Shown in pieces: positions 1 through 19,646 of a DNA stretch of 32,085 nucleotides. The notes under the pieces were generated by a model, which searched no databases, had not been told where the DNA came from, and was given only the letters and a program-made list of their open reading frames with translations. Within the stretch, counting starts at the first letter, position 1, and every line of letters starts with the position of its first letter. A program made the position numbers and the translations under genes. The stretch lies in contig JAIRME010000017.1 in NCBI GenBank assembly GCA_031258945.1, positions 1 through 32,085 on the forward strand, written 5' to 3'. Origin of the DNA: Mycoplasmataceae bacterium. Lineage in GTDB: Bacteria > Bacillota_I > Bacilli_A > Mycoplasmatales > Mycoplasmoidaceae.

Positions 1-122
1 AAAATTCTTGGATCTATAGGTGAGGGGGGGGGGGAAGAGTTACAAGATGTGGTACTGATACTAACTAGAAGCGAATTACTCGTTAACAAACCATATAGTA
101 AATACCTCTTAATTCGCATCAT
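1..122 (-). CDS. Lipoprotein signal peptide, gene truncated by window edge; poly-C tract after lipobox
   Basis: Reading leftwards from ATG 122-120 (a second ATG at 119-117) gives a typical mycoplasma lipoprotein start: a basic N-terminus (MMRIKRY), a hydrophobic stretch and a lipobox-like STTSC with the cysteine at residue 27. The codons directly after the cysteine (Asn-Ser-Ser) run into a homopolymer of 11 C on this strand (plus-strand G 24-34), encoding prolines. With 11 C the frame is open to the edge (PPPSPIDPRI). One C fewer would shift it, and one C more brings a TAG at once. The gene is divergent from rpmG, and TACAAT at 151-146 could be its -10 box. The mature protein lies outside the window, so its function is unknown. 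Lipoproteins of this kind are usually surface antigens in Mollicutes. Confidence 0.6.
   Translation of the reverse strand, partial: MMRIKRYLLYGLLTSNSLLVSISTTSCNSSPPPSPIDPRI
24..34. repeat. 11-bp poly-G (poly-C on minus) tract
   Basis: Eleven G in a row in very AT-rich DNA. On the minus strand the tract falls just behind the lipobox cysteine of the edge lipoprotein. It is the longest of three such tracts in the window, all inside lipoprotein starts. Confidence 0.9.
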
Positions 123-3296: not shown

Positions 3297-3599
3297 ATGA
3301 ATATTAATCAAATGATGCAGCAAGCACAAAAAATGCAACGTGAAATACAAAAAAAAATTGAAGAGTTTGAGCAGAAAGAATTTGAATTTAATTACAAGAA
3401 CGGTTCAGTAGTAGTAAATATGACTGGTGCTGGTAAAATTACGAAGCTAGTAGTGAATCCTACTTTAATTGACCCCGAAGATAAAATAACTATGGAAGAA
3501 ATGATTGCTGAAGCTATTAACTTGGGATATGATTCTATTCAAGAGGATAAGAATGTTATTCAACAATCGGCGGTACCAAAAACACCGGGCATATTCTAA
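3297..3599 (+). CDS. ybaB: YbaB/EbfC family nucleoid-associated protein
   Basis: A 100-residue protein of the YbaB/EbfC family, a small dimeric DNA-binding protein that usually sits between dnaX and recR. Seen: start MNINQMMQQAQKMQ, the family core GSVVVNMTGAGKITKLVVNP, and the helical end with TMEEMIAEAINLGYD. Length is typical. No dnaX lies upstream; pepF is there instead. Downstream, recR is displaced by about 770 bases by an inserted lipoprotein gene. The 3' end of this gene (PKTPGIF, stop, ATG) appears a second time, diverged, directly before recR at 4299-4370. Confidence 0.92.
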   Translation: MNINQMMQQAQKMQREIQKKIEEFEQKEFEFNYKNGSVVVNMTGAGKITKLVVNPTLIDPEDKITMEEMIAEAINLGYDSIQEDKNVIQQSAVPKTPGIF

Positions 3600-3645
3600 T
3601 GAACTCTATCCCCTTTTAAATGTTTAGTAGATAAGTTTATAGACT
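3552..3645 (+). repeat. Left copy of the duplicated ybaB-recR junction (decayed recR start)
   Basis: After the ybaB stop the sequence carries on as a broken copy of the recR start. It reads M-N-S-I-P-F, stop, where recR reads M-K-P-I-A-F, and the following bases (tttagtagataag) still resemble recR's atttggtagatgc. The matching right copy is at 4317-4410. The two copies flank the lipoprotein gene, whose last codons lie antisense on this decayed copy. Confidence 0.65.
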
Positions 3646-4262
3646 GGGGAAAACAACGTTTGTTCAATCATATGGGGAAATTGGTAATGTTTGTTTAATC
3701 TCTTTACCTTCATAATCCTTTTCATAAAAGAGAATTAATCTATCGCCTAAATATTCCATCCCATTTATATAATGCGCACCATCGGTATATCCAATTTTAA
3801 AGTCATAATTAAGTGAATAATCAGACCTTAAACCTGTAGTGATTATTTCAGAATTGAGATATTGGATATTAACATCGTTTTTCTCTTTGTTTTTGTAAGT
3901 AAGAAGAATTTCGGCATTATTTTCCAAAAAGTTAGCTTTGATAGAGGATAGTTCTTCAGTTCCATCCCTTCATTTAGGGATTAAATATGACAATAAACCA
4001 TTTGATATCGTTTTAATGTTTAAATTATTTTGAACAAATATGTAATCATCATCTGTTGATGATGTAGCGGCATTAAAAGTATAACTTGATGGATTAGTAG
4101 TATTTTGGTTATTGTCTTGTAACAAAGTCTCGGCTTGATCTGGCGAAGTGATTGTATACTGTCAATGTTTAGAACATGAAGTAAGAAGAATTAATGAACT
4201 ACTCCCCCCCCACTAATAACCATTGTAGGTATAAGAATAGTTAACAATTTTATCTTTTTCAT
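3637..4262 (-). pseudogene. Lipoprotein gene, phase-OFF by a poly-G tract in the signal peptide
   Basis: ATG 4262-4260 with a GGAG Shine-Dalgarno at 4273-4270 starts a lipoprotein signal peptide (MKKIKLLTILIPTMVIS). The next bases are eight G (plus-strand C 4204-4211). As written the frame ends after GGGVVH, giving a 23-residue peptide. With nine (or six) G it continues as GGSSSLILLTSC, a proper lipobox with Cys30, and stays open to TAA at 3639-3637. That makes about 208 residues, including Trp-UGA codons. The mature part is polar and Asn/Thr/Ser-rich with a β-like C-terminal part (EYLGDRLILFYEKDYEG). No known family was recognised. The intact downstream frame argues for a reversible switch rather than decay. 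It sits between duplicated ybaB-recR junction copies. Confidence 0.8.
4204..4211. repeat. 8-bp poly-C (poly-G on minus) phase tract
   Basis: Eight C on plus, or G in the coding direction, right behind the Ser17 codon of the lipoprotein signal peptide. One extra G restores the full reading frame. Confidence 0.9.
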
Positions 4263-4278
4263 ATTTATCTCCATTTAA

Positions 4279-4298: not shown

Positions 4299-4370
4299 AT
4301 GGAAGGTGTTAATTTTCAAAACAACTTCATCAAACAATCTACAATGTCAAAAACACTAGGAATGTTTTAA
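4299..4370 (+). CDS. Mini-ORF made of a second ybaB 3' end, translationally coupled to recR
   Basis: A 23-codon ORF starting at ATG 4299. Its end, KQSTMSKTLGMF, clearly resembles the true ybaB end QQSAVPKTPGIF, and its stop overlaps the recR start as TAATG. It is probably a leftover of the old ybaB-recR junction, separated from ybaB when the lipoprotein gene came in. The TATAAT at 4285-4290 lies eight bases upstream, so the transcript would be nearly leaderless and the mini-ORF could bring ribosomes to recR. The peptide itself need not have a function. Origin is well supported; role is inferred. Confidence 0.55.
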   Translation: MEGVNFQNNFIKQSTMSKTLGMF

Positions 4371-4966
4371 TGAAACCAATTGCTTTTGAATATTTGGTAG
4401 ATGCATTAAAATCATTACCAGGTGTTGGTAAAAAACAAGCTGAACGGATAGCTTATTTTTTAATTTTGAAAGATGAAAAATATATTAAGGAATTCATAGA
4501 ACGCATTAATGAAAGCCATCTAAAAATTCATTTTTGTAAACAATGTAACAATTTTGCTGAAAGTGAGTTATGCGATATATGTTCAAATAAAATGCGTCAA
4601 CTAAATAAATTATGCGTCGTTTCTTCTATTGAAGATTTACAAAAGATTGAAGAAACAAATTCATATCTGGGTTTGTATTATGTATTACAAGGCGAAATAG
4701 ATGTAAAAACTAAAACGAACTTAGATCAGCATATTATTCGAAAATTTATGAATTTGTTGCAATCACATTCATTTGATGAAGTTATTTTGGCTACTAATTG
4801 AACCATTAATGGTGAAGCAACTGCTACATTTATTAAAAAAATTGTTAATGAGTTATCAAAGGCTAATGTGTATCGTTTGGCATTGGGGTTGCCTATTAAT
4901 TCAGCGCTTGACTACGCTGACAATACGACATTAAAATATGCAATTCAAAACAAAACTAAATATTAA
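4370..4966 (+). CDS. recR: Recombination protein RecR
   Basis: A 198-residue RecR, the DNA clamp that with RecO loads RecA on gapped DNA. Domain order is normal: an N-terminal helix-hairpin-helix (LPGVGKKQAERIA, residues 16-28), the C4 zinc motif with Cys56, Cys59, Cys68 and Cys71, then the Toprim domain and the C-terminal segment with LGLPINSALDYAD. UGA at 4799-4801 is Trp. The start overlaps the stop of the preceding mini-ORF (TAATG). The stop TAA overlaps the stop of convergent trmB by two bases. The usual partner ybaB lies about 770 bases upstream. Confidence 0.95.
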
Positions 4967-19134: not shown

Positions 19135-19646
19135 TTAAACTAGAGTAGGAGTATTGTAAGAGATAACAAAGTTAAGTTTAACTTTTTTGAAGGTGGTAGT
19201 GGATGTAGGTTCATCTTTATCTTTGGAACCTCAGCATTCAACAGTAACTTTATGGTCTGGCAAATAGTAAGGATTAGAATCGGGTCTTGGGAAATTTACA
19301 ACCAAATGAGGATTTGCCTTATCTTGATTGTAAGTCACAACATATGAAACATCCACTTTTTGTGACATACTAATACCAATGTTTGCTTCAACTGATCCAT
19401 TGCTATTAGGCGCTTGATCATCTTTAGTTGTAAAGATGTAATTGTAGTCTCCGAAACTTGGAGCTACACTTGAACCTTGTAAGTCTGCTTCCCATTCACT
19501 GGCTTCTGCATTTCATTCAAGGGTGATGGTAGCACTATAAGAATCTACTTTACTACAAGATGTAGAAATACTAGCTACTGCCCCCCCACAGCCAACACAC
19601 CAAAAATTGGTGCAATTGTACTTAATAATATTTTTTTCTTATTCAT
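19135..19646 (-). pseudogene. Second lipoprotein gene, phase-OFF by a poly-G tract
   Basis: ATG 19646-19644, preceded by an AAGAGAG-type purine stretch, starts a signal peptide (MNKKKILLSTIAPIFGVLAV). The tract of seven G (plus C 19581-19587) puts the frame into TAG after GGQ, leaving a 23-residue peptide. With eight G it reads GGAVASISTSC, with the lipid-carrying Cys31, and stays open for 170 residues to TAA 19137-19135. The mature part looks β-rich: GDYNYIFTTKDDQ, VDVSYVVTYNQDK, HKVTVECWG and KKVKLNFVISYN. Both Trp codons there are TGA or TGG. No known family was recognised. It lies convergent to rpe and downstream of the pfl operon. Confidence 0.8.
19581..19587. repeat. 7-bp poly-C (poly-G on minus) phase tract
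   Basis: Seven C on plus inside the signal-peptide region of the second lipoprotein. Addition of one G restores the frame. Confidence 0.85.

Follow-up and report, generated by a model that had tools for sequence, protein, structure and literature searches.

CTCTT repeats within the signal peptide of the Neisseria opa genes turn expression ON and OFF by slippage. In mycoplasmas, comparable switches have been described for several lipoprotein genes: the P48-like gene MAGa1620 of Mycoplasma agalactiae 5632 contains a G10 tract, and removal of one G results in an in-frame signal peptide with a lipobox; the tract of P68 in M. bovis varies from G8 to G10, with the full-length (ON) protein encoded at G9; and further lipoproteins with poly-G, poly-C or poly-A tracts were reported, together with the spma family, in which poly-G lies in the 5'UTR (PMC2824730). 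The vaa gene of Mycoplasma hominis is switched by poly-A, being ON with 8 residues and OFF with 7 or 9, at a rate of 10^-3 to 10^-4 (PMC524362), and the mod gene of Ca. M. girerdii is under G8 control (PMC5476646). Beyond mycoplasmas, slippage at the pilus G-tracts of Bifidobacterium breve turns a surface-protein gene ON and OFF (PMC9187656), while in pil1 of Streptococcus gallolyticus GCAGA pentamers are located in a leader ORF before an intrinsic terminator, at two pilus loci (PMC3894217).

Here, we analyzed a lipoprotein gene located at 4262-3637 on the minus strand of a window of 32,085 nucleotides, which is the whole stretch of DNA under study. Like P68 and the P48-like gene, it carries a poly-G tract (8-10 in these genes) at the 5' end of the coding region, where a single G joins the signal peptide and lipobox to the mature part. 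Those two systems, however, comprise one or few genes of a ruminant pathogen, whereas the tracts described below are found in unrelated lipoproteins across an uncultured genus, the likeness considered here being one of tract mechanism. The placement in the signal peptide is shared with opa, although both opa and the B. breve pilus genes differ in organism and repeat unit. In vaa, too, a homopolymer near the 5' end switches a surface-protein gene, but the run is poly-A and a single gene is concerned. On its own, the window gene adds a new member to the known poly-G mechanism of mycoplasma lipoproteins. The original prediction had regarded both the gene and the placement of its tract as undescribed; this holds for the gene family, which is absent from Pfam and NCBIfam, but not for the signal-peptide placement, already published for MAGa1620 and P68 (PMC2824730).

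Codons 1 to 17 of the signal peptide, the start codon included (4212..4262, minus strand; MKKIKLLTILIPTMVIS, encoded by ATG AAA AAG ATA AAA TTG TTA ACT ATT CTT ATA CCT ACA ATG GTT ATT AGT), specify a positively charged n-region and a hydrophobic core. A Shine-Dalgarno sequence, GGAG, is present at 4269..4272 (4272-4269 in the direction of the gene), 6 nt upstream of the ATG at 4262, in line with the ribosome-binding site and hydrophobic signal peptide that had been predicted. These codons are followed by the candidate switch, a G8 tract (GGGGGGGG; 4204..4211, minus strand, read 4211-4204), and then by AGTAGTTCATTAATTCTTCTTACTTCATGTTCT. As assembled, the gene reads MKKIKLLTILIPTMVISGGGVVH and stops: translation past the tract gives GGG-V-V-H-stop, and the premature TAA at 4193-4191 limits the product to 23 residues (genetic code 4), which agrees with the early stop formerly ascribed to the eight G. 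Two bases further on, a second frame encodes (GG)SSSLILLTSC-SKHWQYTITSPDQ and comprises 188 codons up to a TAA at 3637-3639. This post-tract frame (3637..4203, minus strand) spans the end of the signal peptide, the lipobox LLTSC (4188-4174) and the mature lipoprotein, is intact and has homologues in three species. It contains three TGA codons, read as Trp, as is TGA across the whole window. Both frames come into register with nine G, or with six, and at n=8 the gene is OFF. Re-reading of the frames thus bore out the coordinates, Ser17, the lipobox and the nine-or-six rule of the original prediction. With the tract in phase, the protein has a charged start (MKKIK...), a hydrophobic core and a lipobox Cys (LLTSC), as lipoproteins do, and, as in contingency genes, the number of G determines the frame in which an otherwise intact gene is read.

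The window copy has its tract out of phase, and a simple scan upstream of the gene found no sigma-70-type promoter, as might be the case for a pseudogene killed by a one-off frameshift and now decaying. Nevertheless, the gene shows no decay. Its 188 codons carry no further lesion, in accordance with the long open frame of about 180 residues initially claimed, and when the letters of the post-tract stretch were shuffled, this frame was open in 0 of 20000 trials. Stops number 8 and 16 in the two remaining frames of the same stretch, and log-odds per codon are positive in the lipobox frame alone (+0.11 vs. -0.55 and -1.12). AlphaFold2 modeled the post-tract mature part as a confident alpha/beta fold (pLDDT 82.6, pTM 0.80). 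A structure search with this part returned no PDB or BFVD match at E<=0.001, and profile searches of the mature protein gave no NCBIfam match and, from Pfam, only a sub-threshold hit to DUF5007 (E 0.008).

Runs of G or C are far in excess of expectation in this genome. Using a second-order Markov model built from the window, 0.43 runs of at least eight (0.28 G + 0.15 C) were expected in the 835-kb assembly, vs. approximately 70 found, so that, as in contingency genes, a repeat tract far above chance length lies inside the coding region. Within the window, the number of G and C runs falls steeply with length (one of five, none of six), with runs reappearing at 7, 8 and 11. To search for tracts in the same slot, we scanned the 36 genomes of the genus for ATG-AAN-AA-(22 to 52 nt)-G8, with the reversed pattern as a control. 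The pattern matched in 16 of the 36 genomes and the reversed control was almost nil; outside the genus, matches were few and in most cases the reversed control gave as many, a small set of paralogues in genome G011 being the exception. The full layout, i.e., a charged start, a hydrophobic core, G7-G11, 8-16 residues, a lipobox Cys and a long open frame, was found in 38 genes from 10 species, with a spacing from tract to lipobox Cys of 8-16 residues (10 residues in 23 genes). Including L001, L032 and L053, which appear to start with GTG, there are 41 slot genes in 10 of the 36 sister species, 26 of them in frame and 15 out, and their mature parts are mostly unrelated.

These counts bear on two alternatives. 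Decay following a chance frameshift would not be expected to break 15 of 41 genes at the same slot, nor to place the break in the window gene exactly at a tract that is also present in in-frame homologues from other species. Open frames tend to be a little shorter in the out-of-frame genes (median 155 aa compared to 204 aa for in-frame genes; p=0.03), and some OFF genes may therefore be decaying; for the window gene itself, we consider the pseudogene explanation very unlikely. The second alternative takes GGG-GGG as a glycine hinge that serves the signal peptide, the run having no role in switching, and it is true that the in-frame genes encode Gly-Gly(-Gly) at the slot. However, GGG is a minority codon that encodes just 12% of glycines, and none of the 23 conserved window genes contains GGG-GGG; further, 15 slot genes are out of frame, and a homologue without the run (L051) has lost the glycines along with it. 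A hinge function alone is hence extremely improbable.

Differences in tract length, with both phases represented, were observed between copies and homologues rather than at the window locus. Two copies of a single lipoprotein gene in the same genome as the window, L001 with an in-frame G8 and L032 with an out-of-frame G9, share 96.9% identity across the 163 bp past the tract; they are also nearly identical upstream of it, yet are in opposite phases. The family of the window gene, so far known in this genus only, has three members in this genome: the window gene itself (G8, out of frame), the paralogue C44 (G9, out of frame, requiring 8) and C33, which is truncated at the tract, where the contig ends. 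In the homologue from genome G037, a G9 tract keeps the gene in frame, while one member from G044 has G8 in frame and another lacks the tract. The tract glycines are accordingly not conserved as residues, being absent from a G044 homologue. The nearest homologues of the window gene share 35% identity with it, and synonymous sites are saturated.

Since homopolymers are error-prone and the window sequence is a consensus MAG, the true tract could always be in frame and the observed length an error of sequencing or assembly. Short-read MEGAHIT assemblies usually give the right consensus for G8 and G9, and the contig names of the relatives (k119_) suggest assemblies of this type. Errors can account neither for the tracts themselves nor for their conserved slot; moreover, lengths from 7 to 11 were found, and among the 14 tabulated out-of-frame genes 6 need +1 and 8 need -1. 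We regard a mere error as highly unlikely.

Both ribosomes and RNA polymerase are prone to slip on long G runs, and programmed ribosomal frameshifting or transcriptional slippage might yield the full protein from DNA with n=8, rendering the gene constitutive or leaky. Ribosomal shifting was mentioned by Nouvel et al. for the P48-like gene (PMC2824730). A programmed site, however, needs a fixed slippery sequence, one direction and one length, whereas the tracts of the genus vary in length and their genes need 0, +1 (6 genes) or -1 (8 genes). Because both directions of shift are needed, we rejected programmed frameshifting as the main explanation; that either kind of slippage yields full-length protein at n=8 is unlikely, if less so than decay or error, and phase variation may be accompanied by leakiness.

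Poly-G ON/OFF phase variation is by far the best-supported reading of the tract, since the same slot is occupied in 41 genes with mixed phases, two near-identical copies differ by one G and an in-frame homologue exists; the slipped-strand switching put forward in the original prediction gains support from the same comparisons. The window gene is thus very probably a phase-variable surface lipoprotein caught in the OFF state. Polymerase slippage on the G run within the signal-peptide codons would add or remove G. Nine G (or six) would place the signal peptide, the lipobox and a mature protein of approximately 190 residues in one frame, making lipidation and display possible, whereas with seven or eight G the protein would end soon past the tract. 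With the tract in one slot of unrelated lipoproteins of the genus, each cell lineage could display a different subset. Replication slippage and its reversibility, lipidation, surface display and a benefit to the cell are what we infer from sequence comparisons.

Poly-C tracts were also found in promoters. Runs of at least eight C ending 2-9 nt before TATAAT occur at 16 sites in the genome of the window and at about 28 in G054, with a reversed control that was nil in both. In G054, the spacer between a conserved CACAAA and TATAAT measures 16 to 20 nt, mostly 17, its length being set by the C run, and the ATG follows 6 nt past TATAAT, as in leaderless genes. The same genome has 17 lipoprotein genes (L066, L075, L080, L083, L087-L099) with a near-identical signal peptide and poly-G, sharing MNKTKIGFSLLGIALI-Gn-I(G/A)LSTSLTSC and diverging thereafter into different mature parts; most of them carry the spacer poly-C, and the promoter and signal-peptide tracts are approximately 60 nt apart in the same genes. 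This family resembles spma of M. agalactiae, which likewise combines a similar signal peptide and lipobox with a poly-G tract per gene and different mature parts (PMC2824730). The spma tracts, however, are located in the 5' untranslated region, in contrast to the promoter-spacer poly-C and signal-peptide poly-G that occur in the same gene in G054.

A third kind of tract is found in a leader family, R1, with at least 18 aligned copies in the genome of the window (20 by model; among them L003, L010, L011, L013, L014, L016, L017, L020, L022, L028, L030, L033, L034, L036, L039 and L040) and 11, 12 and 47 copies in G037, G041 and G044, respectively (including L102-L104 and L107-L126). In this leader of approximately 125 nt, TATAAT and an ATG that hardly varies between copies are separated by 5-8 nt. 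G7-11 follows the ATG, and behind it lie a hairpin, a stretch of pyrimidines and a second, terminator-like hairpin that carries T6; a Shine-Dalgarno sequence and a gene for a lipoprotein or another membrane protein follow downstream. The terminator-like hairpin gave z-scores of -4.9 to -7.1, and pairing-preserving double changes were observed in both hairpins (13 of 31 pairs). In the G037 leaders, (GA)n takes the place of the G run, which indicates that the repeat is conserved and not its letters. A frame from the tract to the terminator was present in 40 of 40 copies (the copies are related, and the shuffle null is 80% per copy), while the remaining frames nearly always stop early; in the current phase, 10 copies are long and 30 short. 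An Rfam search matched only tRNA and tmRNA. Three of the G044 leaders (L120, L122 and L123) precede members of the window lipoprotein family, in which the signal-peptide tract is found in G000 and G037 while several G044 members have the leader tract instead.

As in pil1, the repeat of R1 lies in a leader ORF that precedes an intrinsic terminator and, beyond it, a surface gene, with one frame reaching the terminator, and repeat number would decide between an early stop and an ORF running into the terminator. R1 differs from pil1 in its repeat (G7-11 or (GA)n), in the ATG directly past the -10 box and in its copy number, which is 11-47 per genome in four genomes. Judging from this layout, R1 looks like a phase-variable leader-peptide attenuator, although the fold also allows an alternative in which the purine run pairs with the pyrimidine stretch. 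Tentatively, and with somewhat more doubt than confidence, the lipoproteins of the genus may be under three layers of repeat switching: promoter poly-C acting on transcription start, leader poly-G or (GA)n on attenuation and signal-peptide poly-G on translation, the leader being a multi-copy, short-repeat version of pil1 with a leaderless ORF.

In the literature searched, which included few subscription papers, we found no description of a single genus-wide slot, of its coupling with promoter poly-C or of multi-copy repeat leaders, and the scale and layering of repeat switching in the genus look new. Phase variation is usually interpreted as escape from vertebrate antibodies. The relatives are presumably termite-gut MAGs, as judged from their isolate and sample codes, and the window gene carries the known poly-G phase variation of mycoplasma lipoproteins into uncultured symbionts; a repertoire this large in likely symbionts of insect guts or flagellates suggests other pressures, such as phage, recognition by a protist host or innate immunity. 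With 41 signal-peptide switches and about 100 leader elements, the genus moreover provides an extensive natural data set on slippage, tract-length selection and layered switching, and it seems that its very small genomes vary their surface through miscounting of G and C runs.

With regard to its locus, the window gene lies between ybaB/ebfC (3297..3599, plus strand; orthologues in L044 and L046-L048) and recR (4370..4966, plus strand), which has RecR matches in 'Mycoplasmataceae bacterium' MAGs at 82 to 56% identity. Low GC content and TGA read as Trp had initially suggested Spiroplasma, but these matches point to an uncultured lineage of Mycoplasmatales. In L044, L046, L047 and L048, recR directly follows ybaB, whereas the window has the lipoprotein gene between the two in antisense orientation. 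A second, diverged ybaB 3' end adjoins recR at 4320..4374 (plus strand; 38/55 bp shared with the original at 3549-3603, alignment score 21 vs. a maximum of 15 in 1000 shuffles), and the gene is therefore flanked by two ybaB 3' ends. The ybaB-recR adjacency in relatives and the second tail together indicate that the lipoprotein gene was inserted, probably by recombination that carried along a ybaB tail.

Other tracts were noted in the window and in the rest of the genome. A second lipoprotein gene of similar design (19135..19646, minus strand) encodes MNKKKILLSTIAPIFGVLAV, has G7 at 19581-19587 and continues as VASISTSC...; it is OFF at 7 and would be in frame at 8. A third, MMRIKRYLLYGLLTSNSLLVSISTTSC (1..122, minus strand), ends at the contig end and has C11 on the coding strand (24-34) just past the lipobox Cys. 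At L012, G8 at 1535 (minus strand) lies just past the Walker A region of an ABC-transporter ATPase gene, which is now out of frame, and a further G8 at 3460 (plus strand) is in frame in a membrane-protein gene approximately 2 kb away; switching may hence extend to transporters. A candidate invertible promoter between facing C8 and G8 tracts was rejected, its arms consisting of homopolymers only. In genomes G004-G010 (genus g3), 78 to 251 overlapping G8 matches per genome were unlinked to lipoprotein starts, the reversed control being as frequent. Finally, the paralogous set of G011, from another genus of the same family (C1:226673, 227148, 238107, 243650; C4:1566; C15:9281, 11245), starts with ATGAAYAAAAAATTAATNGGTAGTTTGTTAG8 and repeats the design with a shorter N-terminal part.
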